In this document: one piece after another, positions 25,182 to 41,773 of the stretch
Position numbering within the stretch: position 1 is the first letter of the stretch
How the letters are laid out: each line of letters starts with the position of its first letter
NCBI RefSeq assembly: GCF_029212375.1
Contig: NZ_JARGNU010000006.1
Coordinates: forward strand, 80,535 to 144,534
Reading direction: 5' to 3'
From: Zhongshania sp.
Lineage (GTDB): Bacteria; Pseudomonadota; Gammaproteobacteria; Pseudomonadales; Spongiibacteraceae
Length of the DNA stretch: 64,000 nucleotides
Position numbers and translations under genes: made by a program
Notes under the pieces: generated by a model
Database searches by the model: none
Seen by the model: the letters and a program-made list of their open reading frames with translations, nothing else
Told to the model about the DNA's origin: nothing

Positions 25182-26090
25182 TTAGCTTGGTAAGTGCTTT
25201 AAGGCGATCACCGCCGCTGCCGTGCGGTTTTCAACATTGAGTTTGCGAAATATTTGCTCTAAGTGTTTGTTGGCTGTGCGCGGGCTCATGTCGAGAATAG
25301 TACCAATTTCACGATTGGTTTTGCCGTGGGCAATCCACAGCAATACCTCAGACTCACGCTCGGTAATAGGCAGAGCGGCACGTAGGCGCTCTAGATCAGA
25401 GGGCCGCTCCATGTCGATGAGTTGCAGTAAATATTCATCGTCCCCAGTTTGGCTTATATAGCGAATTTCTAGCGGTTTCTTGGCGGCTTTTACCAGCAGG
25501 CCTTTTTCCTTGTTGTAGTGCGGCGCCAGTAATTGGCTGAGCTGGCTGGGTAGGTTTTCGTCTAGCCACGTACTGTTTAAGCCGGCGTCTTCTAGTAAGT
25601 GGTAAGCCTGAGGGGTTGCCCAAAGTACGTTGCCGTCGGTGGTGGCAGAAAATAAAAATTTGCCGGTATTGTCTAGTGCAACGCGCGCGCTGAGGGTTAA
25701 GCGTGCATTGCTTAAATGGGCGCGTATTCGCGCGATAAGCTCATCGCCTTTGACCGGTTTGGTAATGTAGTCGACACCGCCGGCGGCAAAGCCTTTTACA
25801 ATACTTTCGGTGTCGCTAAGACCGGTCATAAATATAACGGGAATATGGGCTAGCTCGCGGTTTTCCTTTAAGCGTCGGCAGGCTTCAAAACCGTCCATAT
25901 TTGGCATTAAGGCGTCCATTAAAATAACGTCGGGGGTAATTGTGGCGGCAATGGTTAGGGCTTGGGCGCCTTCCAGTGCGACCAGTACTGTAATGCCCGC
26001 CTGATCTAAGGTGTCGTTTAACATGCTCAAGGTATCGGGTGAGTCGTCGACGATTAGCACGACGTCTTTCTTGGCGCTGGTTGGCTTCAT
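25182..26090 (-). CDS. Response regulator with LuxR-type DNA-binding domain
   Basis: 302 residues. Receiver domain at about 9-125 with phospho-acceptor Asp59 (VILMDALMPNMDG) and Lys111 (YITKPV); a middle region (about 130-230) that looks PAS-like; and a C-terminal LuxR helix-turn-helix (ITERESEVLLWIAHGKTNRE, about 235-300). Its start overlaps the stop of the hybrid kinase gene by four bases, so the two form a dedicated pair. The likely target is the divergent amide-transport operon starting at 29.8 kb. Confidence 0.94.
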   Translation of the reverse strand: MKPTSAKKDVVLIVDDSPDTLSMLNDTLDQAGITVLVALEGAQALTIAATITPDVILMDALMPNMDGFEACRRLKENRELAHIPVIFMTGLSDTESIVKGFAAGGVDYITKPVKGDELIARIRAHLSNARLTLSARVALDNTGKFLFSATTDGNVLWATPQAYHLLEDAGLNSTWLDENLPSQLSQLLAPHYNKEKGLLVKAAKKPLEIRYISQTGDDEYLLQLIDMERPSDLERLRAALPITERESEVLLWIAHGKTNREIGTILDMSPRTANKHLEQIFRKLNVENRTAAAVIALKHLPS

Positions 26091-29000
26091 ATTGGCTTGT
26101 CTTCTAAGGCGGCGATGAGTGCGGCGAATTGAAATCCTGCCGCCTGCTCCTGCAGGCTGGCAAGACTTTTGGGGTCGATGCTTTGGTCTTGCGCCAGTTT
26201 GTCTAGGCAGTGGCGAATACCCTTGGCGTAGCCAATCTTCGCGAGTTGAATTAGCTCGCGACGCGCCTCAATGCTCAGCGTGAGCGAAATGGTATCCGCG
26301 CTGGCGGCGTTCGCCACTACCCGATCTTCACTTTGTTGTTTTGACTCATATACCCAATCGATTCCCGCATATTTTGCTAAGTAGTCGAGCACTTGCGCAA
26401 CGCGGATGGGTTTAAAGAGATAGGCATCGTGAGGTGGTACGCCACTGCTTTCTGGCGTCACCTCGGTCGCATTGGCCGAAATCATAATAATGGTGGCGCT
26501 GTGGATGCGCGCGCGAATGGCTTTGGCTAAGTCCCAGCCGCTCATGCCGGGCATGGCAATATCTAAGAGAAATACCCGCGGTTCTGAGGCGCAGTAGCGG
26601 AGCATGTCTAAACAGGTGCCGCCGTCCGGAGCCGAGATCACATTGAAACCCAGCGGTTTTAGCATGTCGCTGAGCAGGCTGCGGTGGGTGGGTTCGTCAT
26701 CGACCACAAACAGGGTTTGCTCGGCGCCCTCGTAGCTAATGATCTTTTTCTCGCTGGGGCTCACACTGGCCAGTCTGTCGGTGCTACTCAGCATTAGGTT
26801 TAGCTTCACTTCACTGCCAACCCCAACTTGGCTGTGAATACTAATGTCGCCGCCCATAATATCGGTGAGCAGGCGAGTGATGGTGAGACCTAATCCGGTG
26901 CCGGCAATATGCGGAGCGCCAGGTTTGCGCACGCGCTCAAAGGGCCTGAAAATACGTTCGATATCCTCGGCGGCAATGCCAAAGCCGGTGTCGTTAATAA
27001 TAAACTCAGCGACCTGGTTGCGATAACTAATGGTGAAATTGACCCGTCCCTCTGGCGTGTATTTTATGGCGTTGGAAATTAAATTAATGAGAATCTGGCG
27101 CAGGCGCTTTTCATCGGTTTTTACTGTTTCTGGCAGCGGTGTGAGGCGGTCAAAACTAAAGCCAATGCCCTTGGCCTGGGCTTGAACCTGAAACATACTC
27201 ACAATCTGGTCTAATAAATTACCCAAGTTTACGTCGCTTGGTGAGAGCTCTAAGCGGCCCGCTTCAATACGGGATATATCCAATAAACCTTCAATTAGGT
27301 CGGCTAGGTGTTCGCTGCTCCGGCGTATTACCCGCAGGGCATCGAGGCGACTAGCAGGGATGGATGTGTCTTTTTCCAGTAGCTGGGCATAGCCGAGAAT
27401 GGCATTTAGGGGTGAGCGCAGTTCGTGGCTGATGCCGGTTAAATAGCGAGTTTTGGCTTGGTTGGCGGCTTCGGCAACCTCTTTGGCGCGCTGTAACTGC
27501 AGGTCGGTTTGTTTGTGGGCCGCAATTTCAGCCATGAGCAATTCGGTCTGCCGTTGGGATTCTTCTTGGGCAACTCGGCGACTGTCGTGGACCAGCGCGA
27601 ACATCCACGCCAATATGCCGCAGACAATAAGCAAAATACAAAATACGTTTGTTAAAGCGCTGGCGGCGAGGCTGCGCTCCATGCCCTCGTCGATGGTGAT
27701 TTGCACATAGACCAGCGCTAACACACTGGCAATGATAAAGCTGATAAGCGTGAACAAGCCTAAAAAATGCCCAATGCGGGTATTCAGTGAGCGTATCCAA
27801 CTGGTCGGCAGCAGAAAGCTGAGGGCATTGGTGAGCTGCTCGGCCATGCGCGAATTGGTTTTACACATATCGTGACAGCGGCTGTCGAGTGAGCAGCACA
27901 GCGAGCAAATTGGCCCGGCGTAGGCGGGGCAGTGACTCATGTCCTCGCCTTCAAAATGGTGGTAGCAAATACAGCAGCGCAGAGAGACTTTGCTGCTGGC
28001 GATGGCGGGTTCGCGGGCTAAGTAGTAGCGGCCCTTGGTTAGCCAGCAAATGAGCGGTGCGAGAATAAAGGTGCTACCCAGCGCTATAAACGAGGCCAAT
28101 GCTTGGGCGGTGGGGCCAAATTGGCCAATATGGGCAAACAGTCCCACGGTTGACGCAATGATCATCGAGCCAACCCCAACGGGGTTGATGTCGTAAAGGT
28201 GGGCACGTTTAAACTCTATTGCTTGGGGGCGCAAGCCAAGGGGCCGATTGATGACCAAATCGGCGACCAATGAGCCGACCCAGGCCAGCGCAATAATCGC
28301 GTAGGCGGTGAGGATTTCTTCCAGAATTCGATAAATGCCCAGTTCCATCAACATCAGCGCAATGGCCACATTAAACACCAGCCACACTACCCGCCCAGGG
28401 TGGTTGTGAGTGAGCCGCGAAAAGAAATTAGACCAAGCAATGGAGCCAGCGTAGGCGTTGGTAACATTGATTTTGAGCTGCGACAAAATCACAAAAACGC
28501 TGCATAAAATCAATGTTAGCTGGGGCGACGAACTTAAATAACTGAAGGCAGTGAGGTACATGTGATTAGGATCGGCGGCATCACTAAACGGAATGCCGTG
28601 GCTCAGCGCCAATACCGCCAGAAAGGAACCCACCAAGATCTTAATCGAGCCGCTAATAATCCAGCCCGGCCCCGCCGCGATTAACGCCAGCCACCAGCGC
28701 TTATTAGGCCGATCTTGGTGGGGCAAAAAGCGCAGAAAATCGACCTGTTCGCCTATTTGCGCAATCAGTGAAAAGATCACCGCCGAGGCGGCGCCAAAGG
28801 CCAAAATGTTGAGATTTGGGTCGCTGTCTGGCGGTGTGAAGGCCACCCAGTTATTAAAGGCCTCGTCCGACTGCCAAGCAATACAGGCCAGCGGCGCGAG
28901 CTGCAATACAATCCACAGCGGTTGAGTCCACACTTGAAAGCGGCTTATCCAGGTAATGCCGTGGGTCACCAGCGGAATCACCACAACGGCGCTGATTAAA

Positions 29001-29458
29001 TAGCCGTACTTGAGTGGAATGTCGAGGCTGAGCTCCAGCGCCAGCGCCATGATCGACGACTCAAGCGCAAAGAAAATAAAGGTGAATGAGGCGTAAATCA
29101 GTGAGGTGATGGTCGAGCCAATATAACCAAAACCGGCACCACGGGTGAGCAGGTCAATATCAATGCCCTGGCGGGCGGCGTGATAGCAAATCGGCAGGCC
29201 GGTTAAAAAAATAATAATGCCCACGGCCATAACTGCAGCCACGGTATTGTTAAAACCGTAGCTGAGGGTAATCGCCCCGCCAATAGCCTCGAGGGCAAGG
29301 AAGGAAATAGCGCCCAGCGCGGTGTTCGAAACCCGATTAACTGACCACTTACGCGCAGCCTTGGCGGTGAATCGCAGTGCGTAATCTTCTAAGGTTTCGT
29401 TGGCTACCCAACGATTGTACTTCCGGCGTACCCGGAATACTTTTTGTTGCGCACTCAT
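26087..29458 (-). CDS. Hybrid histidine kinase with N-terminal NCS1-type transporter
   Basis: 1123 residues in this order: NCS1 (cytosine/purine permease-like) transporter with about 12 membrane helices (about 40-475); a Cys/His-rich module (495-532, including CCICYHHFE, SHCPAYAGPICSLCC and CHDMC) suggestive of zinc binding; two more membrane helices (about 563-585 and 602-622); a coiled-coil linker; HisKA with His678 (ISHELRSPLNA); HATPase with NAIKY, DTGFGI and GTGLGLTI; and a receiver with Asp966 (LLDIAMP). A full transporter fused to a kinase suggests uptake or binding is itself the sensed event. It is paired with the downstream response regulator and faces the urtABCDE/amiE genes, so its ligand is probably an amide, urea or related compound. 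Confidence 0.93.
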   Translation of the reverse strand: MSAQQKVFRVRRKYNRWVANETLEDYALRFTAKAARKWSVNRVSNTALGAISFLALEAIGGAITLSYGFNNTVAAVMAVGIIIFLTGLPICYHAARQGIDIDLLTRGAGFGYIGSTITSLIYASFTFIFFALESSIMALALELSLDIPLKYGYLISAVVVIPLVTHGITWISRFQVWTQPLWIVLQLAPLACIAWQSDEAFNNWVAFTPPDSDPNLNILAFGAASAVIFSLIAQIGEQVDFLRFLPHQDRPNKRWWLALIAAGPGWIISGSIKILVGSFLAVLALSHGIPFSDAADPNHMYLTAFSYLSSSPQLTLILCSVFVILSQLKINVTNAYAGSIAWSNFFSRLTHNHPGRVVWLVFNVAIALMLMELGIYRILEEILTAYAIIALAWVGSLVADLVINRPLGLRPQAIEFKRAHLYDINPVGVGSMIIASTVGLFAHIGQFGPTAQALASFIALGSTFILAPLICWLTKGRYYLAREPAIASSKVSLRCCICYHHFEGEDMSHCPAYAGPICSLCCSLDSRCHDMCKTNSRMAEQLTNALSFLLPTSWIRSLNTRIGHFLGLFTLISFIIASVLALVYVQITIDEGMERSLAASALTNVFCILLIVCGILAWMFALVHDSRRVAQEESQRQTELLMAEIAAHKQTDLQLQRAKEVAEAANQAKTRYLTGISHELRSPLNAILGYAQLLEKDTSIPASRLDALRVIRRSSEHLADLIEGLLDISRIEAGRLELSPSDVNLGNLLDQIVSMFQVQAQAKGIGFSFDRLTPLPETVKTDEKRLRQILINLISNAIKYTPEGRVNFTISYRNQVAEFIINDTGFGIAAEDIERIFRPFERVRKPGAPHIAGTGLGLTITRLLTDIMGGDISIHSQVGVGSEVKLNLMLSSTDRLASVSPSEKKIISYEGAEQTLFVVDDEPTHRSLLSDMLKPLGFNVISAPDGGTCLDMLRYCASEPRVFLLDIAMPGMSGWDLAKAIRARIHSATIIMISANATEVTPESSGVPPHDAYLFKPIRVAQVLDYLAKYAGIDWVYESKQQSEDRVVANAASADTISLTLSIEARRELIQLAKIGYAKGIRHCLDKLAQDQSIDPKSLASLQEQAAGFQFAALIAALEDKPI

Positions 29459-29766
29459 ATGGCCAAATGACGCTCCGATAACAGCTCATTGGCTGAACGA
29501 ACTAGCTAGGACTTGCCATTATAGGCCTTAAGCTTGTTTGAAGCCCGCAGCATACAGTCATAAAGGTTTTGTCCCGTCTCTAGTATATCTGCTTATAGAA
29601 AGGCACCCGAGTGGTGTTTACCTGCAGAAGGTACCGCGCTGGCGGCGAGGCCGGTATACGTCATTTAACTTACTGGGGGGGAGCATTCGCCTCATGGTGC
29701 GATGGGGAACTTCTAAGGAGACTGTCCACTGTCGAATCAAGCAACCCAAGGGTAGGAGAAGTAACG
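29459..29766. other. Divergent control region between the kinase and urtA
   Basis: 308 bases separate the two divergent transcription units and should hold both promoters and the response-regulator sites. I see a weak sigma70-like pair (TTGTCC 29569-29574, TATAGA 29594-29599, spacer 19), a direct repeat ACTGTC-C-ACTGTC (29721-29733), and AGGAGA before the urtA start. No clear sigma54 site and no strong palindrome were found. Confidence 0.4.
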
Positions 29767-31014
29767 ATGAGTGATAAATCCGATAATCAGCGTTCGTGGG
29801 GGCGCCGCAAGGTAGTTCGCGCCCTTGGCGCACTGCCGCTGGGTATTATTCTGGCATCGCAGTTGAGTTGGGCGGCACCCGCCACCACCACTGGGCAGGC
29901 GGTTACCGAAGATACTGTAACGGTGGGCATTTTGCACTCGCTCACCGGCACCATGGCGATTAGTGAAACCGGCGCCCAAGAGGCCGAAAAGCTGGCCATT
30001 AAACAAATTAACGAATCTGGCGGTATTCTCGGCCGGCAAATCAAAATCATTCAAGAAGATGGCGCCAGCGACTGGCCAACCTTTGCAGAAAAAAGCCGTA
30101 AATTATTAGTGAACGACAAGGTAGCCGCCGTATTTGGCTGCTGGACCTCGGCCTCGCGTAAAGCAGCGCTGCCGGTGTTTGAAAAAGAAAATGGCCTGCT
30201 TTATTACCCCACATTTTACGAAGGGCTAGAGCAGTCTAAGAACGTAATTTACACCGGTCAGGAAGCGACCCAGCAGATTCTAGATGGTTTGAACTGGGTG
30301 GCAAAAGAGAAGGGCGCGAAGACCTTCTACCTGATTGGCTCCGATTACATCTGGCCACGTACTTCCATGAAAATTGCCCGTAAACACATAGAAAACGTGC
30401 TGGGCGGCAAAGTGGTGGGTGAAGAGTACAAGCCACTGGGCGATACCCAGTTTGGTTCGGTCATCAACAAAATCCGCCTTAAAAAGCCTGATGTGATTTA
30501 CGCCGCGGTAGTGGGTGGCAGTAACGTAGCGTGGTTTAAGCAGCTTAAAGCGGCGGGTATCAACTCCAAGAAGCAGACGCTGCTGACGATCTCGGTAACC
30601 GAAGATGAAGTATTGGGCATCGGTGGTGAAAACCTCGAAGGCTTCTACTCCATCATGAAGTACTTCCAGAGCCAAGATAACGCCAACAACGTGGCCTTTG
30701 TTAAAGCCTTTAAAGAAATGTGGGGCGACGACAGTGTGATTGGTGACGTAACCCAAGCTGCTTACCTCGGGCCTTGGTTGTGGAAAGCGGCTGTAGAGAA
30801 AGCCGGCACCTTTGACGTAGACGCCGTTGTTAAGGCCTCTGAAGAGGGCGATATCGAGCTGACTACCGCACCAGAAGGCTATGTGAAACTTCACCCCAAT
30901 CACCACCTTTGGAGTAAGGCACGGGTAGGTATGTGGAAGAAAGATGGTCAGGCCGAGGTGGTGTATACCTCTGAACTGCTTGAGCCAGATCCATTCCCAG
31001 AAGGTTATCAATAA
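29767..31014 (+). CDS. urtA: ABC transporter substrate-binding protein, urea/short-chain amide (UrtA/FmdD-like)
   Basis: 415 residues from the ATG at 29767 (AGGAGA about eight bases upstream); a longer in-frame version is not credible since its extra N-terminus is not a signal. The signal peptide carries a twin-Arg pair (WGRRKVVRALG), so Tat export is possible. The mature protein is a type I periplasmic binding protein (VTVGILHSLTGTMAISETG; GGILGRQIKIIQEDGASDWP; AAVFGCWTSASRKA). This family binds urea (UrtA) or short amides plus urea (FmdD of Methylophilus). Amidase genes downstream and no urease argue for amides here; that is inference. Confidence 0.93.
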   Translation: MSDKSDNQRSWGRRKVVRALGALPLGIILASQLSWAAPATTTGQAVTEDTVTVGILHSLTGTMAISETGAQEAEKLAIKQINESGGILGRQIKIIQEDGASDWPTFAEKSRKLLVNDKVAAVFGCWTSASRKAALPVFEKENGLLYYPTFYEGLEQSKNVIYTGQEATQQILDGLNWVAKEKGAKTFYLIGSDYIWPRTSMKIARKHIENVLGGKVVGEEYKPLGDTQFGSVINKIRLKKPDVIYAAVVGGSNVAWFKQLKAAGINSKKQTLLTISVTEDEVLGIGGENLEGFYSIMKYFQSQDNANNVAFVKAFKEMWGDDSVIGDVTQAAYLGPWLWKAAVEKAGTFDVDAVVKASEEGDIELTTAPEGYVKLHPNHHLWSKARVGMWKKDGQAEVVYTSELLEPDPFPEGYQ

Positions 31015-31146: not shown

Positions 31147-32070
31147 ATGGGCGGTTATAGCTACGACGAGTTAGGCGCGATATTCGCAATGCAGGGCTTC
31201 GCCGGCATCAGCTTGTTCAGCGTACTGTTGCTGATGGCCTTGGGGCTCGCAATTATATTTGGGCAGATGGGGGTCATTAATATGGCTCACGGCGAATTTA
31301 TGGCCGCAGGGGCGTATACCACCTATCTGATCTCTTCTCTCACAGAAACCTATATTCCGGCATTCATGCCGTACTATTTTGTGTTCTCGATTGCTGCGGC
31401 ATTTCTCGTTGCCGGCACACTCGGGTATCTCGCAGAATTTATATTGATAAGGCATCTCTACAAGCGCCCATTAGACACCTTGTTAGCGACTTGGGGCTTG
31501 AGCTTAATCATGCAGCAATCCTACCGCTCGATCTTTGGCGCGCGGGAAGTTAGCCCCACGCTACCTGATTGGTTAATGGGTGCTTATCCAGCGACAGACA
31601 TGATCGACATCCCCATTAACGGCATGTTCGTGCTCGGTTTAACGATATTCACCACCTTGGCAGTATTTTACCTCATGTTTAAATCCAGCTGGGGTTTGCG
31701 GGTGCGCGCCACCACTCAGAATCGGGTTATGGCTGGCGCGGTGGGTATTAACACCAAAAAGATTGACCGCTACACCTTTGCTCTGGGTTGCGGCATAGCC
31801 GGTATGGCCGGTGCGGCGTTTACCACGATTGCGTCTACTGGGCCAACCACGGGAACGCTTTATATTGTTGATACCTTTATGGTGGTGGTCTTTGGTGGTG
31901 CTGCGAGCTTGTTTGGCACAATCGCCTCGGCATTTTCAATCGCACAAGCCCAATCCATTCTCGAATTCTTTATCAGCGGATCAATGGCCAAAGTCTTTAC
32001 TTTGCTCACCTTGGTAATAATTTTGATGTTCAAACCAGAAGGCCTATTTGCCAGCAAGGTTCGTCGCTAA
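31147..32070 (+). CDS. urtB: Branched-chain/urea-type ABC permease UrtB
   Basis: 307 residues, about eight membrane helices. Family stretches: LGLAIIFGQMGVINMAHGEF and LATWGLSLIMQQSYRSIFG. It pairs with UrtC to form the membrane channel for the substrate delivered by UrtA. It is 132 bases after urtA, with a stem-loop between, and 49 bases before urtC. Confidence 0.95.
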   Translation: MGGYSYDELGAIFAMQGFAGISLFSVLLLMALGLAIIFGQMGVINMAHGEFMAAGAYTTYLISSLTETYIPAFMPYYFVFSIAAAFLVAGTLGYLAEFILIRHLYKRPLDTLLATWGLSLIMQQSYRSIFGAREVSPTLPDWLMGAYPATDMIDIPINGMFVLGLTIFTTLAVFYLMFKSSWGLRVRATTQNRVMAGAVGINTKKIDRYTFALGCGIAGMAGAAFTTIASTGPTTGTLYIVDTFMVVVFGGAASLFGTIASAFSIAQAQSILEFFISGSMAKVFTLLTLVIILMFKPEGLFASKVRR

Positions 32071-32119
32071 GACGAGCCTCGCTCTAAGCGATCTGGTTAT
32101 AAATTATTGGGAGTTAATG

Positions 32120-33274
32120 ATGAGCTTTGTATACGAAAAATTATTTGGCGATAAAAAGGGGCTAATAGGGTTTTGCATCTTAGCGGCGCTGATTCTGGTT
32201 GTGTTTCCTGTGATGCTCGATTCCTTTCGTTTGAATCTGGTGGGCAAATACCTGACCTACGCTTTCGCGGCGGTTAGCTTGGTGTTGCTGTGGGGTTATG
32301 GCGGCACCTTGAGTTTGGGGCAGGGCATCTTCTTTGGTATTGGCGGCTACGCCATGGCGATGTTTTTAAAACTAGAGGCCTCGTCGCCGGAAAATACCGC
32401 TATCCAGTCAACACCGGGCATTCCCGACTTTATGGACTGGAACCAAATAACGGAACTGCCGACCTTCTGGATACCATTTCACAGTTTCACCTTAACTTTA
32501 ATCGCCATCTTAGTGGTGCCCACCATCTTTGCGTACATCATTGGCGCCGCCATGTTTAAACGCAGAGTCGGTGGCGTGTACTTCGCCATTATTACTCAGG
32601 TTATCTCCGTAATCTTAACGGTACTGATTGTAGGTCAGCAGGGGCTAACGGGCGGGATTAATGGCATAACCGATTTGCGCACCCTAAATGGCTGGGACAT
32701 CACCTCAGACAGTGCCAAGAATCTGTTTTACTTTATTAACTGTTTTCTGCTCCTCGCGGTCATTATTGCCTCGCGCTTTATCTTAACCAGTAAGTTTGGA
32801 CGCTTACTGCTGGCCATGCGCGACAAGGAAGACCGGGTGCGTTTCTCGGGCTACGATGTGGCCAATTTTAAAATATTTATCTTCTGCTTTGCAGCGATGA
32901 TCTCCGCGATAGGCGGCGCCATGTTTACCTTGCAGGTCGGCTTTATGTCACCGTCCTTCGTCGGTATTGTGCCCTCCATTGAAATGGTGATCTTTGCCGC
33001 GATTGGCGGCCGCATGTCACTGATCGGTGCGGTATACGGCACCTTGCTGATTAACTTTGGTAAAACGGCGTTCTCTGAATCCTTTCCTGAGCTATGGCTA
33101 TTCCTCATGGGCGGTTTGTTCATCGCCGTTGTTATGTTTTTTCCAAACGGCCTAGCTGGCTTGTGGGAAGACTATGGCCACCACATCACCAAACGCTTTG
33201 GCTTTATCAATAAATTTTTTGATAAATCTGAAAACACCGCAGATAGCGTTGAGCTGGAGGGGTCAAACTCATGA
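32120..33274 (+). CDS. urtC: Branched-chain/urea-type ABC permease UrtC
   Basis: 384 residues from ATG 32120 (GGGAG at 32109-32113; ATG 32117 is an equal alternative). About nine membrane helices, with the LivM-type segment LLWGYGGTLSLGQGIFFGIG and a C-terminal EYGRMSL-like helix (IGGRMSLIGAVYG). Second permease subunit. Its stop overlaps the urtD start (ATGA at 33271-33274). Confidence 0.95.
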   Translation: MSFVYEKLFGDKKGLIGFCILAALILVVFPVMLDSFRLNLVGKYLTYAFAAVSLVLLWGYGGTLSLGQGIFFGIGGYAMAMFLKLEASSPENTAIQSTPGIPDFMDWNQITELPTFWIPFHSFTLTLIAILVVPTIFAYIIGAAMFKRRVGGVYFAIITQVISVILTVLIVGQQGLTGGINGITDLRTLNGWDITSDSAKNLFYFINCFLLLAVIIASRFILTSKFGRLLLAMRDKEDRVRFSGYDVANFKIFIFCFAAMISAIGGAMFTLQVGFMSPSFVGIVPSIEMVIFAAIGGRMSLIGAVYGTLLINFGKTAFSESFPELWLFLMGGLFIAVVMFFPNGLAGLWEDYGHHITKRFGFINKFFDKSENTADSVELEGSNS

Positions 33275-34023
33275 ATATGTCCACCAATACTGACTTTACC
33301 TTGGCGATAGAAGATCTCACGGTGTCATTTGATGGCTTTAAAGCCGTCGATAGCCTGAACTTCTACTTAGACAGAAATGAGTTGCATGTGGTTATTGGCC
33401 CAAATGGCGCCGGTAAAACCACCGTGTTGGATTTGATTTGCGGTAAAACCAAATCAACCTCTGGCAGCATAAAATTTTTGAACAAGGAATTAACCAATCT
33501 TTCTGAGCACGAAATTGTGCGGGCGGGGGTGGGCCGTAAATTTCAAACCCCGTCGATTTATGAAAACTTGAGCGTGATGGAAAATTTGGAAATTTCCTAT
33601 CCCAAAGGGCGCGGCGTATTTGGCTCGCTGATGTTTAAACACGACGCCGTGGTACGCGATAAAATTATGGAAGTGGCCAAGCAGATCATGCTGGAAAAAT
33701 CCTTGCACACCGAGGCCGGCCTGCTAAGCCACGGGCAAAAGCAGTGGTTAGAAATTGGCATGCTGCTGATTCAAGATCCCCAGTTGCTCATGCTAGACGA
33801 GCCGGTTGCTGGTATGAGCGTCAAGGAGCGGGAGCAAACCGCCGAGTTACTTAACAAAATCAGCGCTGGTAGATCGGTGCTGGTGATAGAACACGATATG
33901 GAATTTGTCGCACGTATAGCCCACAAGGTCACCGTTTTGCACCAAGGCAAGATTCTGGCCGCTGGTGAAATGAAAGATGTGCAAAAAGACCCCAAGGTGA
34001 TTGAGGTTTATCTCGGTCATTAA
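33271..34023 (+). CDS. urtD: ABC transporter ATP-binding protein UrtD
   Basis: 250 residues. Walker A GPNGAGKTT, signature region LSHGQKQWLEIGMLL (typical of UrtD rather than LivG), Walker B LLMLDEPVAGMS, switch His in VIEHDM. It supplies ATP energy with UrtE. Coupled to urtC by a four-base overlap. Confidence 0.95.
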   Translation: MNMSTNTDFTLAIEDLTVSFDGFKAVDSLNFYLDRNELHVVIGPNGAGKTTVLDLICGKTKSTSGSIKFLNKELTNLSEHEIVRAGVGRKFQTPSIYENLSVMENLEISYPKGRGVFGSLMFKHDAVVRDKIMEVAKQIMLEKSLHTEAGLLSHGQKQWLEIGMLLIQDPQLLMLDEPVAGMSVKEREQTAELLNKISAGRSVLVIEHDMEFVARIAHKVTVLHQGKILAAGEMKDVQKDPKVIEVYLGH

Positions 34024-34086: not shown

Positions 34087-34776
34087 ATGTTAGAAGTCTC
34101 TAATTTAAAAGTGTGTTACGGGCAAAGTGAAGTTATTCACGGCCTTGATTTTGTGGTGCCCAAAAATGAGACCCTTGCGATTATGGGCCGCAATGGCATG
34201 GGTAAAACCACGCTGTTTAAATCACTTATCGGTATCTTGCCCAGCGCTGATGGCAAAATTTTAATTGACGGAATTGATGTTAGTAGTAAAGAAAGTTTTC
34301 AGCGGGTGGAAAATGGCATTGCCTATGTTCCCCAGGGGCGAATGATATTTCCCTCGCTAACCGTGCAAGAGAATATTGAAACGGGAATGGAAGTCTCCAA
34401 ACTTAAAAAAATTCCCGATGATATCTACGCGCTCTTCCCAGTGCTGGCAGAAATGCGCAAGCGTAAAGGCGGCAATCTCTCGGGTGGTCAGCAGCAGCAA
34501 TTGGCGATTGCGCGGGCACTGGTGACGAATCCCAAAGTGCTACTGCTTGACGAGCCAACGGAAGGTATTCAGCCCTCTATTATCAAAGACATTGCCAATG
34601 TGCTTAATGAAATTAAAAAACTGCGCGACATCACCATTATTGTTTCTGAACAAGTGCTGAGCTTTACCATGGCGATAGCCGACCGAATTATTGTGATAGA
34701 CAAGGGCAGCTTTATTCACGAAGACCTACGCGAAGATGTCGACACCGATAAAATCAAAGCCTATCTATCGGTGTAA
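34087..34776 (+). CDS. urtE: ABC transporter ATP-binding protein UrtE
   Basis: 229 residues, LivF-type ATPase. Walker A GRNGMGKTT, signature LSGGQQQQLAIARAL, Walker B LLLDEPTEGIQPS. Forms the ATPase pair with UrtD. Separated from urtD by 63 bases and from amiE by 59 bases, all on the same strand, so a single long operon is likely. Confidence 0.95.
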   Translation: MLEVSNLKVCYGQSEVIHGLDFVVPKNETLAIMGRNGMGKTTLFKSLIGILPSADGKILIDGIDVSSKESFQRVENGIAYVPQGRMIFPSLTVQENIETGMEVSKLKKIPDDIYALFPVLAEMRKRKGGNLSGGQQQQLAIARALVTNPKVLLLDEPTEGIQPSIIKDIANVLNEIKKLRDITIIVSEQVLSFTMAIADRIIVIDKGSFIHEDLREDVDTDKIKAYLSV

Positions 34777-34835: not shown

Positions 34836-35882
34836 ATGCGACACGGTGATATTTCTAGCAGCCCAGACACGGTTGGCGTGGCGGTTGTTAACTACAAAAT
34901 GCCGCGCTTACACAGCCGCGAGCAAGTATTGGACAATGCCCGCAATATTGCCGAGATGATTAAAGGTATGAAGATCGGCCTGCCGGGCATGGACTTAGTG
35001 GTGTTTCCCGAATACAGCACCATGGGTATTATGTATGACAACGATGAGATGATGGCCACCGCTGCCACTATTCCTGGCGATGAAACCGCTATTTTTAGCG
35101 CTGCGTGCCGCGAGGCCAAAACTTGGGGAATATTCTCGCTTACTGGCGAACGCCATGAAGAACACCCGCACAAAGCGCCATACAACACGCTTGTGCTCAT
35201 TAATGATCAAGGCGAAATCGTTCAAAAATACCGCAAGTGTATTCCTTGGTGCCCAATAGAGGGTTGGTATCCTGGCGATAAAACCTATGTTAGCGATGGC
35301 CCCAAGGGCATGAAAATCAGCCTGATTATTTGTGACGATGGCAACTATCCTGAAATTTGGCGAGACTGCGCCATGAAGGGCGCCGAACTGATTGTGCGCT
35401 GCCAAGGCTATATGTATCCCGCTAAAGAACAACAAGTGATGATGGCAAAAAGCATGGCGTGGGCAAATAACTGCTATGTGGCGGTTGCCAATGCCAGCGG
35501 CTTTGACGGCGTGTATTCCTATTTTGGTCACTCTGCCATTATTGGCTTTGATGGCCGAACTTTGGGCGAGTGTGGTGAAGAAGACATGGGGGTGCAATAT
35601 GCCCAGTTGTCGGTGAGTCAAATTCGCGATGCGCGCGCCAATGATCAATCGCAAAATCATCTATTCAAATTACTCCACCGTGGCTACACCGGCGTCTATA
35701 ACTCTGGTGATGGCGACAAAGGTGTGGCGGATTGTCCCTTCGATTTTTACCGAACCTGGGTTTTAGACGCCGAAAAAGCCCAAGCCGATGTTGAGAAAAT
35801 GACTAGACCGACGATTGGTGTGGCAGACTGCCCCGTGGGCGAGCTTCCCTTTGTCGGCAAGGAAGAGCAGGCGGGCCAATAG
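34836..35882 (+). CDS. amiE: Aliphatic amidase AmiE
   Basis: 348 residues, close over its whole length to the Pseudomonas aeruginosa enzyme as I know it. The nitrilase-fold triad is in the same numbering: Glu59 ([10 protein letters not shown]), Lys134 ([10 protein letters not shown]), Cys166 ([11 protein letters not shown]). It hydrolyses short aliphatic amides such as acetamide and propionamide to acid and ammonia in the cytoplasm. Position directly after an ABC importer and before an amiB-like gene places it in an amide-use operon; the amiC/amiR sensor-antiterminator pair of Pseudomonas is absent and a two-component system lies upstream instead. Confidence 0.97.
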
Positions 35883-35944
35883 CGCAATGCAGTACGTAGC
35901 CGCGCCTCAGTACTGTTACACACGTGTAGACGTGAGGGCTTATC

Positions 35945-37003
35945 ATGCCATTTATAAACGACCAATTGGCAGACAATCAGGCGCGTTTAGCCAGTCAGGC
36001 GAATACCGGCTTGTTTTCAGCGGCCTGCATGCCGGATAAAATCGTGACCGCCAAACGTCAATCCCGTTTTCGCTTTGACCCTGACGCGGTAATGGCCTTG
36101 CTGCGCAGTCGTATTATTGGGCAGGACGCCGCTCTGGCGGCAATAGAAGACATGTTACATGTGGTAAAAGCCGATATTGGTAGCAAGCAGCGGCCACTGT
36201 GCGTGATGTTGCTGCTGGGGCCAACAGGGGTTGGCAAAACCCAGACTGCTCGGCTTATTGCCGAGGCAATTTGCGGTAGCGCCGAGGCCTTGGTTCGCAT
36301 CGATATGAATACCCTCGCGCAAGACCACTATGCCGCTGCATTAACCGGTGCGCCGCCGGGCTATGTTGGTAGCAAGGAGGGGCATACGCTCTTTCCTGTA
36401 GATGAAATAGCGGGGAGCTATAGTGTGCCGTCCGTTATCTTGTTTGATGAAATAGAAAAAGCCAGTGACGAAGTCATCCGCTCGCTATTGAATGTATTGG
36501 ATAGCGGAAAACTACGTCTTTCGTCTGGGGTGAAGGCGCTGGATTTTTGTAATAGCTTAATCTTTATGAGCAGCAATATTGCCGCGTCAGAGCTTGAGCG
36601 CCATCGCAATAAAAAATACGTATTTGCTGAACGGAAGGCTGGCGAACAACAACTGATTGATCGCGCACTTAGGCAGAAGTTTGATCCTGAATTTATTAAT
36701 AGGATCGATGCTATTCTTGTTTTTAAACATTTGCTGCGCAGCGATCTGAGTGCCTTGCTCAATATTGAGCTAGGGAATCTTGGGCGACGTTTGCGTAAGC
36801 AGGGCGTCGAACTTGATTTGGATCAGCCCTGTTTTGATTATCTTTTGAAACACTACGACGACCGCTATGGCGCGCGCGATATTGCTCGCCGTTTGCGAAC
36901 CAGCTTAGAACCGGTAGTGGCCAGAGCCATATTGGCAGCGCCAGAGAGCAATCGCTTCATTGGCTTTATTCAGAATAGTAGCTTGGTGGTTGAGGCGGTG
37001 TAG
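35945..37003 (+). CDS. AmiB-like AAA+ ATPase of the Clp/HSP100 class
   Basis: 352 residues containing a single AAA+ module related to the second domain of ClpA/ClpB. Walker A GPTGVGKT (92-99), substrate-threading pore loop GYVG (139-142), Walker B ILFDEIEKA (165-173), sensor 1 SSN (209-211), arginine finger in FDPEFINRID (near 253), sensor 2 YGARDIARRL. There is no Clp N-domain, first AAA domain or ClpP-docking loop that I can identify. Pseudomonas amiB occupies the same place after amiE and its role is unsettled. The intact pore loop suggests protein remodelling, perhaps of the amidase or transporter; that is inference. Confidence 0.85.
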   Translation: MPFINDQLADNQARLASQANTGLFSAACMPDKIVTAKRQSRFRFDPDAVMALLRSRIIGQDAALAAIEDMLHVVKADIGSKQRPLCVMLLLGPTGVGKTQTARLIAEAICGSAEALVRIDMNTLAQDHYAAALTGAPPGYVGSKEGHTLFPVDEIAGSYSVPSVILFDEIEKASDEVIRSLLNVLDSGKLRLSSGVKALDFCNSLIFMSSNIAASELERHRNKKYVFAERKAGEQQLIDRALRQKFDPEFINRIDAILVFKHLLRSDLSALLNIELGNLGRRLRKQGVELDLDQPCFDYLLKHYDDRYGARDIARRLRTSLEPVVARAILAAPESNRFIGFIQNSSLVVEAV

Positions 37004-37381
37004 GACTTTTATAATAGTGCTAGTTCAAGCTTGATAGGAGGTGCTTCGCTAGCCGGTTCTCAATGGAATCGGGTTCAGCGCCAGCTCCATGCCCATACCC
37101 AGAGCACGTCATTTGTTGATATACCGCGATAAATCATGTTATGTGTGGTATGTTGTCTCTCTTGTTGTTCTTTCTGCGTTTTATTAGCGTGGCATCAATC
37201 GCGCGATTTCCATCACCGTCACCTCAATATTGGGCTCTGCGGTTCTCAAAATATAGATTTTCCATCTCCACCCTGTAAAGCTACATCCTATATTGCCCGC
37301 ACATTCTAGCGCTATGCTGGCGAATTTTTCCTATTTTCTTGATATCAGAAATGATCATCAAGCGCCACTTATTGGAGTGTT
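37004..37381. other. Gap after amiB-like gene, with a possible gene remnant
   Basis: 378 bases. The only coding-like signal is a minus-strand open stretch (37184-37330, 48 codons, ending at TAA 37184-37186) whose end reads RTAEPNIEVTVMEIARLMPR. It has no usable start codon at its 5' end. Otherwise I see no clear promoter or terminator. The lipid-synthesis-like gene downstream probably starts its own transcript here. Confidence 0.4.
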
Positions 37382-38035
37382 ATGACTACGGGCAATACTG
37401 AATTTAAAGAGCAGCAACCCAGCATACTTTCTTTTGTAAAAGACCTGCCGAATATCTGTTCACTGGCGGGACTAGCCTGCACCATTCTGGCCATTTACTT
37501 TAGCATTTTAGGTGTTTTTTACGCGGCAATGATTGGCATGATCTGGGCTGTTGCCTTTGACTGGGCCGACGGCTTGGTTGCGCGAAGAATGAAAGGGCGC
37601 ACCGGCAGCGACCGCATCTTTGGCGGTCAGCTCGATTTGCTAATCGACATTGTAAGTTATGGCGTTACACCCGCGGTGCTGCTGTTGAGTTTTGGCGGCT
37701 TTGCGCCAATCTTTCTGATAGGGGCTTTTATTATGCTCGCCGCGAGCGCAATAAGGCTGAGTTATTTCAGTACCTTCGGTCTTTCTGGTGAGGCGAAATA
37801 CACGGGGCTGGCGCTGGATAACAACAATATTATTCTGGTATTTATATTTTTGTTTGAAAGTTTTTTAAGTCAGGGCGTTTTCTCAATTGTGCTTTATATC
37901 AGCGGTGTGGGGCTTGCGGTGCTGAATGTATCGCAGATTAAAACCCCAAAGCTCTCTGGTAATCCGGCTAATGTTTATCGCTTGGCAATTTATACACTGG
38001 CGATTACCGGTATTTATGGCTGGAAGCTTTTGTAA
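37382..38035 (+). CDS. CDP-alcohol phosphatidyltransferase family membrane enzyme
   Basis: 217 residues, about six membrane helices. The family motif is visible: Asp60-x2-Asp63-Gly64, Ala67-Arg68, Gly81, Asp85 and Asp89 (DWADGLVARR ... GGQLDLLID). The gap between Arg68 and Gly81 is 12 residues, longer than the usual 8-9. These enzymes swap CMP on a CDP-linked donor for an alcohol, making phospholipids. A small cytidylyltransferase gene 72 bases downstream suggests that a soluble CDP-alcohol is the donor. The product (headgroup) is unknown. Similar to phosphatidylserine synthase in general build. Confidence 0.85.
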   Translation: MTTGNTEFKEQQPSILSFVKDLPNICSLAGLACTILAIYFSILGVFYAAMIGMIWAVAFDWADGLVARRMKGRTGSDRIFGGQLDLLIDIVSYGVTPAVLLLSFGGFAPIFLIGAFIMLAASAIRLSYFSTFGLSGEAKYTGLALDNNNIILVFIFLFESFLSQGVFSIVLYISGVGLAVLNVSQIKTPKLSGNPANVYRLAIYTLAITGIYGWKLL

Positions 38036-38107
38036 TTGACTTAAGGTGGAGTGAGATTGGACTCGGCAGTAGAAAACACTATTTTAAACGAGGAGTAAAA
38101 AAGGATA

Positions 38108-38551
38108 ATGGTTGTATACACTGTAGGTACATTTGATTTATTGCACGTAGGGCATCTTGCCTTGTTAGAGTACTGTAAAACGTTGGGCGATGTAGTGGCG
38201 GTTGGTGTTGCCTCTGATAAAGTGGTGAACTCCTATAAGCCTAATACACCGGTTATTCCCTTAGATCAAAGATTGGAAATGTTAAAGGCCTTGCGCTGCG
38301 TTGATATTGTTCAGCCCTACCACGAGTTAGAATATGTTTCTGGCTGCAAAGCAGTAGACGCCGATATTTTTGTGGTGGGTGAAGACTGGGGCAAGAAGCG
38401 CCACAATCTTGAAGTGGAAGCCTACTTAAAAAGCCAGGGCAAACAAATTATTCAGGTGCTTTATAATCCGCGCACCTCATCTAGCAGAATTAAAAAGCAC
38501 ACCATCGCGCAAACGGATAAAAATAATTATCTTGAGAAAAGCGTAGCCTAG
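38108..38551 (+). CDS. Cytidylyltransferase-like nucleotidyltransferase
   Basis: 147 residues. HxGH motif in GTFDLLHVGH (7-16) and the C-terminal RTSSSRIK resembling the RTxGISTT motif of glycerol-3-phosphate and ethanolamine-phosphate cytidylyltransferases. Expected reaction: CTP plus an alcohol phosphate gives a CDP-alcohol. It directly follows the CDP-alcohol phosphatidyltransferase gene, so the pair may carry out two steps of one lipid pathway. Substrate unknown. Confidence 0.87.
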   Translation: MVVYTVGTFDLLHVGHLALLEYCKTLGDVVAVGVASDKVVNSYKPNTPVIPLDQRLEMLKALRCVDIVQPYHELEYVSGCKAVDADIFVVGEDWGKKRHNLEVEAYLKSQGKQIIQVLYNPRTSSSRIKKHTIAQTDKNNYLEKSVA

Positions 38552-38692
38552 ATACATCACTGTGCTGGCGCCGCAAAGCTATTAATATTGCTTGTGCGCT
38601 TGGCAGCGATAAAGCTGTAGCCCCTTCGCTGTTTATATTTGGCATCGCTCGCTCTACACTGCTGGTCTTTACTCAACACTGGGACATATTCC

Positions 38693-39721
38693 ATGAAAGC
38701 TATTGCTTATAAAAAATCACTGGCGATTAATGAACCAGAGTCATTAATCGACATCGAACTCCCGCAGCCCATTGCCAACGGGCGCGATTTACTCGTGAAG
38801 ATCAAGGCAATTGCCGTTAACCCCGTAGATTCCAAAATTCGCCAGAAGGCGGTAAATGAAGACGGTAGCTACAAGGTGATTGGCTGGGACGCCGCCGGCG
38901 AAGTGATTGCGGTAGGTGAAGCAGTAACAAAATTTAAGCCTGGTGATGTGGTTTATTATGCCGGCGACCTTACGCGTCAAGGTAGCAATGCCGAGTATCA
39001 GCTGGTCGACGAGCGTATTGTGGGTGGTAAACCCAAGAGTTTGTCATTTGCTGAAGCCGCTGCGCTACCGCTGACAACCATCACCGCTTGGGAGTTGTTG
39101 TTTGAGCATCTTGCAATAAAGCAGCAAGGCGCGAATTCAACGGACAAATCCGACGAGGTAATTTTGGTGGTGGGCGCAGCAGGTGGCGTCGGTTCTATTT
39201 TGATTCAGCTTGCTAAGGCCATTACGGGTGCCACGGTGATCGCCACCGCGTCACGGGCAGGAACTCAAACGTGGGTGAAGTCGCAGGGCGCAGATCATGT
39301 TATAGATCACAGCAAGCCACTCCTGCCGCAACTCGAGGCATTAGGAATTAAACAGGTCACTCATATTGCCAGCCTGAACGGCACCGGCAGCTACTTTGAC
39401 AGCTATCCAGAAATGCTGGCGACCTTTGGCAAAATCGCGATGATTGACGATCCGGCTACGCCGCTAGATGTAATGAAATTAAAAACAAAGAGTCAGTCGC
39501 TGCATATCGAGTTTATGTTTGCCCGCTCAATGTACCAAGCGGCCGATATGGACGAGCAGGGCAAGCTGCTAAGCCGCGTGGCCGACCTAGTTGACCAAGC
39601 GTATATTAAAACCACTAGTGGCAAAAACCTTGGCACTATCAATGCCAACAATCTCAAAGCGGCCCACGCCGAATTGGAGTCGGGTACGGCGATTGGCAAA
39701 ATCGTTTTAGAAGGTTTCTGA
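38693..39721 (+). CDS. Zinc-type alcohol dehydrogenase/quinone oxidoreductase family protein
   Basis: 342 residues from ATG 38693 (the longer in-frame version adds 18 residues without family similarity). N-terminal GroES-like domain (NPVDSKIRQKA; GWDAAGEVIAVGEAV) and a Rossmann domain with VVGAAGGVGSILIQLAK. The zinc-binding Cys of classical alcohol dehydrogenases is absent, as in the quinone-oxidoreductase branch. NADPH-dependent reduction of enones or quinones is likely. No obvious link to its neighbours. Confidence 0.9.
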   Translation: MKAIAYKKSLAINEPESLIDIELPQPIANGRDLLVKIKAIAVNPVDSKIRQKAVNEDGSYKVIGWDAAGEVIAVGEAVTKFKPGDVVYYAGDLTRQGSNAEYQLVDERIVGGKPKSLSFAEAAALPLTTITAWELLFEHLAIKQQGANSTDKSDEVILVVGAAGGVGSILIQLAKAITGATVIATASRAGTQTWVKSQGADHVIDHSKPLLPQLEALGIKQVTHIASLNGTGSYFDSYPEMLATFGKIAMIDDPATPLDVMKLKTKSQSLHIEFMFARSMYQAADMDEQGKLLSRVADLVDQAYIKTTSGKNLGTINANNLKAAHAELESGTAIGKIVLEGF

Positions 39722-39757
39722 TATAGCAGCAACAATTTAGTCTTTGCTTGCAGTATT

Positions 39758-39793
39758 GCCGCCGAGTTAGGTCAAGTCTCTCGGCGGCTTTTT
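39758..39793 (+). terminator. Rho-independent terminator after the oxidoreductase gene
   Basis: Perfect nine-base arms GCCGCCGAG / CTCGGCGGC, 13-base loop, then TTTTT. The remaining bases up to 40040 before fmdA hold no gene; a promoter for fmdA must lie there but I cannot name its elements. Confidence 0.9.
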
Positions 39794-40040
39794 CGTATTT
39801 GGGCACTTTCCAAGCGCTTTTTCTCAGCTCATTTCTCAGCTTCAGTTGGCACTTTTTATCACCCCTACGTCATTTAACGTAGCCCTCAGGGCATATTGAC
39901 TAATACCGGATCAAACCGCGATTGCGGATAGTAGCTGCATGGCGAAGGCCGCTTATTACTATTTTGCCTCGGGTGATTGGTGTCGATAAGTCGGTGGTGG
40001 TGTCGTCCAGAATTTTCTAAGACTGATCCGGAGAGAAACG

Positions 40041-41273
40041 ATGGCTGAAACAATCATCAAGGTTGACCTTAGCAAGTCGGCTTATGAGAACGATATGATC
40101 CACAACCGCTGGCACCCTGATATTCCGATGGTGTCGATGGTCAAGCCCGGCGACGATTTTAAAATTGAGTGCGTAGACTGGACCGGCGGGCAGATTAGCA
40201 ATAATGATTCCGCAGATGATGTTCGCGATGTTGATTTGAGTAAGGTGCATTTTCTCTCTGGCCCCGTTGGTGTAGAGGGTGCAGAGCCAGGCGATTTATT
40301 GGTGGTCGATATTTTAGATATTGGCACCTTCGAAGAAAGTCAGTGGGGTTTTAACGGCTTCTTTTCTAAGCAGAACGGCGGTGGCTTTTTAACCGAGCAT
40401 TTTCCCGAAGCGCAGAAATCGATTTGGGATTTTAACGGCATGTTCACCAAATCGCGCCATGTGCCGCGGGTGGAGTTTGCGGGTTTGATTCATCCAGGTT
40501 TGATTGGCTGCCTGCCATCGAGGGAAATGTTAAACGAGTGGAATACCCGTGAAAAAGCCCTGGTCGACACCGATCCCCATCGGGTTCCGGAATTAGCGAC
40601 CCTGCCCTATGCCGAAACCGCCCATATGGGGCGTATGACTGGCGAGGCGGCCAAGGCAGCTGCCGCTGAAGGGGCGCGCACGGTGCCACCGCGCGAGCAC
40701 GGCGGCAACTGCGATATTAAGGATTTGTCGCGGGGCGCGAAGGTATATTTTCCCGTGTATGTAAAAGACGCTGGTCTGAGTGTGGGCGATTTGCACTTTA
40801 GTCAGGGCGATGGCGAAATTACTTTTTGCGGCGCAATAGAAATGGCCGGTTGGATTCATTTGCGGGTGAATTTAATCAAGGGCGGTATTGAAAAATACGG
40901 TATTAAAAACCCTATATTCAAACCCAGCCCGATCACGCCTAAGTATGATGATTATCTAATTTTTGAAGGTATCTCGGTGGATGAGGGTGGCAAGCAGCAC
41001 TACCTCGATGTGCATATTGCGTATCGGCAGGCGTGTTTGAATGCCATTGAGTACCTGACTAAGTTCGGTTACACCCGCGCGCAGGCTTACACCATTCTTG
41101 GGGTGGCGCCAGTGCAGGGGCATATCAGTGGGGTGGTGGATATTCCAAACGCCTGCGCCACATTATGGCTACCCACCGACATCTTTGATTTTGATCTGCA
41201 GCCCAATGCCAATGGACCCACAATCGAGGTCGATGGCAGTAGTGCAGATGTGCCCTTGTCTCCCGATGTGTGA
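40041..41273 (+). CDS. fmdA: Formamidase FmdA (acetamidase/formamidase family)
   Basis: 410 residues, full length for FmdA. Typical stretches: HNRWHPDIPMV near the N-terminus, VEGAEPGDLLVVDILDIG, FAGLIHPGLIGCLPS, and VPPREHGGNCDIKDLSRG with the conserved His and Cys. It hydrolyses formamide to formate and ammonia. A ribosome site (GGAGAG) lies just upstream. Followed by fmdB. Together with amiE and the urt-like importer it points to use of short amides as a nitrogen source. Confidence 0.95.
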   Translation: MAETIIKVDLSKSAYENDMIHNRWHPDIPMVSMVKPGDDFKIECVDWTGGQISNNDSADDVRDVDLSKVHFLSGPVGVEGAEPGDLLVVDILDIGTFEESQWGFNGFFSKQNGGGFLTEHFPEAQKSIWDFNGMFTKSRHVPRVEFAGLIHPGLIGCLPSREMLNEWNTREKALVDTDPHRVPELATLPYAETAHMGRMTGEAAKAAAAEGARTVPPREHGGNCDIKDLSRGAKVYFPVYVKDAGLSVGDLHFSQGDGEITFCGAIEMAGWIHLRVNLIKGGIEKYGIKNPIFKPSPITPKYDDYLIFEGISVDEGGKQHYLDVHIAYRQACLNAIEYLTKFGYTRAQAYTILGVAPVQGHISGVVDIPNACATLWLPTDIFDFDLQPNANGPTIEVDGSSADVPLSPDV

Positions 41274-41383
41274 CACCGGAGCTGTGACGCCCAATGCGTA
41301 ACAGTTAATTGATGAGGCACTGCGCGCTGGCTTATTGGGGAATAGGTCAGTGCGTGTAACAACGGGCGAGAGGAGACTAAGCA

Positions 41384-41773
41384 ATGCCTGTATATGATTA
41401 TAAATGTCAGGACCACGGCCTATTTCATGACTTGGCCAGCATGGCCGAGTCGGCCCTGCCCTGCGCCTGCCCGCAATGCGGCAAGCTCAGTGCGCGGGTG
41501 ATTATGATACCGCCGCAGGTGTTAGCGATGGCACCGGCCAAGCGTCAGGCGATGGCGCGCAATGAAAAAGCGCTGCATCAGCCGATTATTTCGACACCCG
41601 ATTCCCGCGAAGACGCGAGTCAGCGTCGCGCTCACGCCGCCGCCAAAAAAGGCTGTGGCTGCGGGAGCAAAGATATTAACCCCGACCGCAGTAGTTTGCG
41701 TCAGCAAGCGATATTTCTGCCAGACGGCAGCAAGGTGTTTCCCTCCCAGCGACCCTGGATGATTAGTCACTGA
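41384..41773 (+). CDS. fmdB: FmdB-type zinc-ribbon protein
   Basis: 129 residues. N-terminal FmdB zinc ribbon (MPVYDYKCQDHGLFHDL and CACPQCGK give Cys8 and the later Cys pair as ligands), then a basic middle region and a second Cys cluster KGCGCGS around residue 90. FmdB was proposed as a regulator of amide genes in Methylophilus; its function is otherwise unclear. It follows fmdA by 110 bases and ends at a strong terminator. Confidence 0.9.
   Translation: MPVYDYKCQDHGLFHDLASMAESALPCACPQCGKLSARVIMIPPQVLAMAPAKRQAMARNEKALHQPIISTPDSREDASQRRAHAAAKKGCGCGSKDINPDRSSLRQQAIFLPDGSKVFPSQRPWMISH

Follow-up and report, generated by a model that had tools for sequence, protein, structure and literature searches.

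An NCS1-type sensor kinase, its LuxR-type partner and a candidate operator at an amide uptake and hydrolysis locus of Zhongshania

RESULTS

Gene organization of the locus

The stretch of Zhongshania DNA analyzed here, referred to as the window, is 64 kb long (G000:C25:80535-144534) and its own numbering is used throughout. It encodes a hybrid sensor kinase with an NCS1 transporter-like input domain and a response regulator, which lie opposite to a gene run of urtABCDE, amiE and an AAA+ ATPase gene, with fmdA and fmdB farther downstream. All genes named in the initial annotation are present, in the positions listed below. We consider it quite probable that the kinase is a receptor derived from a permease and that, by way of the LuxR-type regulator and a palindromic DNA site, it switches on the uptake and hydrolysis of amides.

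25182-26090, minus strand: response regulator, 302 amino acids, with a receiver (Asp59), a middle region and a LuxR/GerE DNA-binding domain
26087-29458, minus strand: hybrid sensor kinase, 1123 amino acids, with an NCS1-type domain, a linker of eight cysteines, two helices, HisKA, HATPase_c and a receiver
29657-29672, between the kinase gene and urtA: candidate palindromic operator TACGTCATTTAACTTA, 2 mismatches to TACGTCANNTGACGTA
29767-31014, plus strand: urtA-type binding protein of the amide-linked type (TIGR03407, 513.7 against a cut-off of 492.75)
31147-32070, plus strand: urtB permease (TIGR03409)
32048-33274, plus strand: urtC permease (TIGR03408); the open reading frame starts with TTG and the real start may be later
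33271-34023, plus strand: urtD ATPase (TIGR03411)
34087-34776, plus strand: urtE ATPase (TIGR03410)
34836-35882, plus strand: amiE aliphatic amidase (NF009802, 711 bits)
35945-37003, plus strand: amiB-like AAA+ ATPase, ClpB D2-like, named by likeness; a homologue follows amiE in Arthrobacter (L205)
39866-39881, about 160 bp upstream of fmdA: second candidate operator TACGTCATTTAACGTA, 1 mismatch
40041-41273, plus strand: fmdA formamidase (NF045496, 785 bits)
41384-41773, plus strand: fmdB zinc-ribbon protein with an RPWMISH domain (FmdB zinc ribbon)

The start of the regulator gene overlaps the stop of the kinase gene by 4 bp. NCBIfam cut-offs are passed by all five of UrtA-E and by the products of amiE, fmdA and fmdB; the AAA+ gene was assigned by its likeness to the ClpB D2 domain alone, and its name ‘amiB-like’ is a presumed one that takes its position beside amiE into account. 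The urtA open reading frame reaches back to a GTG at 29611, yet the ATG at 29767 opens a plausible signal peptide and is the more likely start. The amide island described in the initial annotation is borne out in gene set and order, except that fmdA-fmdB follow only after three unrelated genes (37382-39721) that part fmdA from the AAA+ gene. These encode a CDP-alcohol phosphatidyltransferase, a cytidylyltransferase-like protein and a zinc-type dehydrogenase. The stretch has no DNA match within loci L018-L183, and where the window carries this insert, Zhongshania antarctica (L018) shows a gap of some 0.44 kb.

The sensor domain as a remote branch of NCS1

From the N-terminus, the kinase consists of an NCS1-type multi-helix domain (approximately residues 30-485), the eight-cysteine linker (495-532), two hydrophobic helices (approximately 565-583 and 605-623) and a core of HisKA (669-734, with His678), HATPase_c (781-889) and receiver (917-1026, with Asp966). 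Neither Pfam nor NCBIfam makes a call over the first 560 residues, and PF02133 has no match to the kinase at E<=1 and none genome-wide at E<=0.001. A profile of ten relatives compared with solved structures gave CodB (7qoa) as the sole convincing match (E 2.9e-7). The sensor model, predicted by AlphaFold2 from 38 sequences (mean predicted local distance difference test score 78), matches CodB with Z 27.8 (381 aligned residues, 3.8 Å) and Mhp1 with Z 25.1 (424 aligned residues, 3.7 Å), and the next-best family reaches Z 21.1. A stand-alone relative from Klebsiella pneumoniae, 41% identical to the window domain, passes PF02133 (38.1 versus 23.5 bits); five others (L204, L205, L167, P0003 and P0004) fail this cut-off.

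Because of the fold, the profile match to CodB and the K. pneumoniae relative above the PF02133 cut-off, we accept the NCS1 label that the sensor had received in the initial annotation, and on the predicted model the kinase sensor is a remote branch of NCS1. It has its predicted fold in common with CodB and Mhp1, and profile similarity with CodB. Unlike them, it has a C-terminal cysteine linker and kinase and lies in a urea/amide gene context; its identity to them is only 13-16% over the fold, and PF02133 is blind to it. An SLC5 domain with a STAC linker was ruled out by the fold, the linker model and the lack of any SSF match (Pfam, E<=1). CHT1 and NIS, which we take to be SLC5 members, stand below NCS1 in the fold ranking (19.7 and 18.8).

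Every kinase of a non-redundant set (82 of 82) keeps all eight linker cysteines. When modeled alone, the cysteine region forms short strands and a short helix around these residues, followed by helices. Its best fold matches are weak and zinc-finger-like (Z<=4.7), and a Foldseek search with the linker model gave no match at E<=0.001, an absence that is no evidence for a new fold. The linker probably binds zinc. The same pair of sensor and linker is joined in Paracoccus TOH (L102) to a shorter, receiver-less kinase with two separate regulators nearby, and frames of a length similar to this kinase are found in L153 and L154 (894 and 899 amino acids). Together, these three loci suggest that sensor and linker form a movable module. 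In each, fmdA and a gene of the AmiS/UreI type adjoin the kinase, and the stretch contains no urt genes.

Distribution and gene neighborhood

The sensor domain is present in 52 of 398 genomes sampled from the phylum, 18 of 369 sampled from the class, 17 of 57 relatives and 550 of 72,556 plasmid records. Klebsiella accounts for 342 of these plasmid records, among which a few chromosome-sized ones with the stand-alone relative alone may be included; the Klebsiella matches listed have about 57% match to the sensor, like the kinase of L099. The fusion of an NCS1 domain to a histidine kinase, noted from the window in the initial annotation, is real and widespread.

Our statement on gene neighborhood is based on the phylum draw, as identity ranking shaped the list of 80 relatives described below. 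This draw provided 56 kinase loci besides the window. Within 9 kb, 37 of them have amide genes, with fmdA in each, and 17 have urease and/or urea-type urt genes. Two loci have under 4 kb of upstream sequence, and each of the 54 readable kinases has amide, urea-importer or urease genes no farther than 9 kb away. A regulator homologue is located downstream of the kinase in 54 of the 56 loci. The same markers are present in none of 40 comparison regions (19.7 kb each, from 21 genomes), which were placed by hand and not by a random generator. With 54 of 54 versus 0 of 40, a merely loose association of the sensor with such genes is ruled out.

The class and relatives sets gave 22 hits that represent 21 different kinases, the first kinase of G303 being counted twice (once cut off, in L174). 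Twelve of the 19 readable hits are linked to the marker genes and three hits are too short. According to the initial annotation, its reading would be refuted by a fusion that occurs mostly without amide or urea genes; in both sets, most readable fusions have such genes. A frame labeled as stand-alone in L161 is the second kinase of G303, cut by the stretch, and the kinase of G093 (L183), cut by the contig end and outside the tally, shares its contig with ureC and ureG. Wide flanks were obtained for six of the 17 relative genomes with the sensor (G031, G020, G007, G048, G049 and G045); G033 was left out. The identity-ranked list, comprising the best 80 of 364 relatives, contains 82 sensor hits, two loci having given two each. 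One of these (L097) is a cut-off kinase labeled as stand-alone; the other 81 are near amide genes (23), urease (31), urease plus urea-type urt (13) or urea-type urt genes (5), with three lacking markers and six having under 4 kb upstream.

Within the genus, fmdA is found in 10 of 18 genomes, the same 10 that have a kinase at least 79% identical to that of the window, so that fmdA and the amide-type kinase either co-occur or are both missing. The only further kinase, in G007, is 60% identical and adjoins urease (L180). Urease scores over the cut-off in 15 of the 18 genomes and does not track the kinase. Across the surveys, seven genomes have two kinases, and four of them (G559, G625, G646 and G777) pair an amide-linked with a urease-linked one; the remaining three have two amide-linked kinases, an amide-linked and an unlinked one, and two unlinked ones, respectively.

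On a tree of 88 sensor domains, with near-duplicates removed and ‘amide’ given precedence in loci with multiple labels, neighbor type changes 17 times versus a shuffled mean of 37.8 (0 of 200 shuffles as low), a clustering that is partly due to related species. UrtA proteins beside formamidase mostly share 71-80% identity within their group, and 40-45% with urea-type UrtA. On the K. pneumoniae plasmid p69-1 (L099), a urtABCDE-formamidase cluster faces the sensor kinase. Its UrtA, with 73% to that of the window and 44% to the urea-linked type, belongs to the amide-linked type, and the cluster may take up short amides in place of urea or in addition to it. From the gene names, it appears to be the Klebsiella plasmid cluster described in PMC13060141 as the ‘UTS’ urea transporter (UrtABC/AmiF).

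Kinase and urtA are usually divergent in the amide group, an arrangement that would also suit an NCS1 domain reading liganded UrtA or the working importer instead of the solute. We give this idea very little credence, given the kinases that have no urt genes in the fetched stretch (L102, L153, L154, the loci with urease only and six paired loci described below), where the rest of the genomes was not searched for urt. A sensor that binds the solute itself is our preferred reading.

Stand-alone relatives of the sensor

Six genomes of two families (G317, G796 and G797; G801, G808 and G811) have the kinase opposite to a stand-alone copy of its sensor domain. After the stand-alone permease in these paired loci (L167 and L206-L210) come fmdA, fmdB and amiE, and urt genes are missing from the stretch; fmdB is seen in five of the six, the scan having found none in L167. 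The palindrome described below lies between the kinase and the stand-alone copy in five of the six, L209 being the other. Further stand-alone relatives are located in or beside urease operons, in K. pneumoniae (L203), on an Acinetobacter ursingii plasmid (L204) and in L177 and L211-L213.

The K. pneumoniae gene (L203:6941-8548; CP125156.1, a 5.4 Mb record in the plasmid listing) comes straight after ureG and is annotated as ‘cytosine permease’, a name that is likely wrong for this relative of the sensor domain. A plasmid of Arthrobacter sp. U41 (L205:5929-12047) carries a permease relative, an aliphatic amidase, an AAA+ ATPase and acs consecutively, making up a compact amide-use operon outside Proteobacteria. 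The stand-alone relative in L103 adjoins hydantoinase genes, and that in L160, with no urease or amidase marker by our scans, is followed by a frame that looks like an amidase. Judged by gene order alone, the simplest reading is that the stand-alone relatives form a family of urea/short-amide permeases; some proteins annotated as ‘cytosine/allantoin permeases’ may on this view carry the wrong name, being permeases for urea or amides. We give about even weight to the broader view that this ‘cytosine’/‘allantoin permease’ branch of NCS1 consists of urea/short-amide permeases and was captured as a two-component sensor, with a few changes fixed in transmembrane helices (TM) 1, 3 and 8 that made a receptor out of a transporter.

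Candidate residues separating receptors from transporters

We compared 83 kinases with 15 stand-alone permease-like forms. Nine positions presumed to line the pocket (E133, Q234, E237, Q238, K329, N331, N334, Y336 and S339) are invariant in both. Near-fixed differences include four other positions: the kinases have F53 (83/83), L56 (80/83), E57 (83/83) and A337 (83/83), versus Y53 (14/15), D56 (14/15), F/Q57 (15/15) and S337 (15/15) in the stand-alone forms. In the model, these four sit in the helices that we presume to be TM1 and TM8, which in the NCS1-type fold line the substrate and cation sites. They are candidate marks of a receptor and do not prove that transport was lost.

The identity of the nine pocket positions would be expected of a flux-sensing transceptor, in which the NCS1 domain still imports urea or amide and the kinase reports transport and not binding, as may also be so for CbrA, whose SLC5 domain alone is reported to mediate histidine uptake (PMC13022988). 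The four kinase-specific residues argue against this, as does the separate importer that adjoins most amide-linked kinases, and we consider such a role unlikely here. A receptor responding to binding would agree better with these differences.

A specificity scan of amide-linked sensors against five urea/urease-linked clades gave mainly positions outside the pocket helices, the best of which is 444 (A/S/T versus L/F/M; I in the window) at the end of a late helix. Like pockets are in keeping with a common carboxamide ligand, a broad sensor or a common non-substrate signal. For the last, the kinase would sense nitrogen status or a product such as ammonium or formate; the lack of any difference in the presumed pocket between amide- and urea-linked kinases and the same palindrome in part of both groups speak for it. 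We find it improbable, as separate amide- and urease-side kinases in four of seven two-kinase genomes would be needless for a common signal, and many stand-alone relatives occur with urease or amidase genes, as substrate permeases would. The substrate is the signal that we favor.

A palindrome before urtA and fmdA

Palindrome counting in kinase/urtA intergenic regions placed TACGTCA-NN-TGACGTA far above shuffled sequences. At least 11 of the 14 positions match in 42 of 58 intergenics (amide-type urtA, <=560 bp, near-duplicates removed, from 78 found) versus 9 of 1160 shuffled ones, a count that is optimistic when taken alone as the motif seed was drawn from those intergenics. A weight matrix made only from kinase/urtA intergenics, including those of this genome and its relatives, ranks 39863 (before fmdA) first in the 64 kb window with 25.9 bits and 29654 (before urtA) second with 23.5, the third reaching 4.8. 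With up to two mismatches, these are the sole two sites in the window (expected 0.17). A palindrome shared by the urtA and fmdA promoters is consistent with control by the LuxR-type protein that the initial annotation had tied to this locus. A match less than 200 bp upstream of fmdA is present in all nine fmdA-bearing Zhongshania genomes listed, of ten that bear fmdA, G015 being the one outside this list.

The strict form TACGY-N6-RCGTA occurs in the promoters of 35 of 45 amide, 4 of 11 urea-urt, 3 of 19 urease and 0 of 9 unlinked loci. A control pattern was found in one promoter. With the matrix at 14 bits, a site upstream of the kinase is found for 44 of 69 amide, 3 of 56 urease, 6 of 17 urea-urt and 1 of 15 unmarked hits, near-duplicates included. 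In Sinorhizobium meliloti pSymB (L101), L133-L135 and L145, the site is 1.7-6.4 kb from the kinase and less than about 0.3 kb from urtA. The best palindromic word in urease-linked promoters is AAGA-N11-TCTT (7 of 19, against a shuffled maximum of 4), and single urease-linked loci have TACGCC..GGCGCA-like words; we draw no support from urease-promoter palindromes. By eye, a second word of approximately GCCGAATGG/CCTAATGG recurs about 15-20 bp past the palindrome in several urtA and fmdA loci, and may be part of the promoter.

DISCUSSION

Proposed mechanism

In the mechanism that we propose, formamide, acetamide or urea would bind in the NCS1 pocket of the kinase, and the resulting movement would reach the HisKA/HATPase core by way of the eight-cysteine, probably zinc-binding linker and the two extra helices. 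Phosphate would then pass to the LuxR-type regulator, either directly or through the kinase's own receiver. The regulator would bind TACGTCA-NN-TGACGTA before urtABCDE-amiE-amiB-like and before fmdA-fmdB, acting as an activator rather than a repressor, and so switch on amide uptake and hydrolysis for nitrogen.

Besides the optimism of the motif count, several findings weigh against this reading. Seven loci in the class and relatives sets have no amide or urea genes within 9 kb, although the edge frames of one of them (L182) look like urtD/urtE by appearance. The link to amides made in the initial annotation holds at many loci, but the family is not specific to amides: a large part has urease or urea-type urt genes instead and these seven have neither. 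No presumed-pocket position separates amide- from urea-linked sensors, and our scans found no urease or amidase marker near the stand-alone relatives of L098, L103 and L214. The strict operator is missing in 10 of the 45 amide loci and in most urease-linked and urea-urt loci, and the only operator-like word in urease loci is the weak CGCC-N4-GGCG (5 of 19 versus a shuffled maximum of 4). Genome-wide, the operator with up to two mismatches is not above its mirror control (3 versus 8 in the window's own genome). Outside promoters, the strict form is not rarer than expected (5 in 1.54 Mb versus 10 for the control pattern), and it occurs three times in 0.79 Mb of comparison regions. The telling feature of the operator is only its places, not its frequency.

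To our knowledge, not many receptors for formamide, acetamide or urea have been described in bacteria. The kinase is a candidate urea/short-amide receptor in many Proteobacteria; it comes with a defined candidate operator and would add a second transporter family to the sensor-kinase ‘transceptors’. The back-to-back transporter and receptor paralogues of L167 and L206-L210 offer a natural comparison for structure-function work on how a pump becomes a sensor.

Comparison with known systems

In Pseudomonas aeruginosa, the amiEBCRS operon is controlled by AmiC/AmiR antitermination and has a gene for a ClpB-like AAA+ protein after amiE. The window likewise has amiE followed by a ClpB-like AAA+ gene; unlike amiEBCRS, it has a two-component system and a palindromic promoter site. 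No AmiR/AmiC pair was found, the single ANTAR protein of the genome (L184, contig C13) being outside the island and beside an NMT1-like protein (PF13379) that is not of the AmiC type, although AmiC was not searched genome-wide. The ANTAR protein and its NMT1-like neighbor bring to mind NasS/NasT. The kinase system may, as suggested in the initial annotation, replace the amiC/amiR circuit.

Two published clusters resemble the window. The fmdCABDEF cluster of Methylophilus methylotrophus, induced by formamide and urea, likewise brings together a formamidase, a regulator called putative and a urea/amide importer (reviewed in PMC10781810). Pseudomonas veronii has amiE-fmdA-fmdB-urtABCDE, without amiC/amiR and with a proposed role in formamide import (PMC13209695); ‘histidine kinase’ and ‘two-component’ occur zero times in that paper. 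Among titles and the starts of abstracts in open-licence PubMed Central, we found no NCS1-fused histidine kinase and no urease operon with an NCS1 urea permease. By its title, a thesis from Leeds that is cited in one paper deals with NCS1 transporters and sensor kinases.

The closest design to the NCS1 kinase is that of the SLC5-STAC sensor kinases CbrA/CbrB, CrbS/CrbR and RpuS/RpuR (PMC13022988, PMC9100948, PMC7096432, PMC5715377). These also fuse a transporter to a kinase with a partner regulator and control the uptake or use of small nutrients, and CbrA and CrbS share with the kinase described here the HisKA and HATPase_c core. In contrast to the three, the Zhongshania kinase has an NCS1 instead of an SLC5 domain, an eight-cysteine linker in place of the four-helix STAC bundle, a further two helices ahead of the kinase core, and urea/amide genes nearby.

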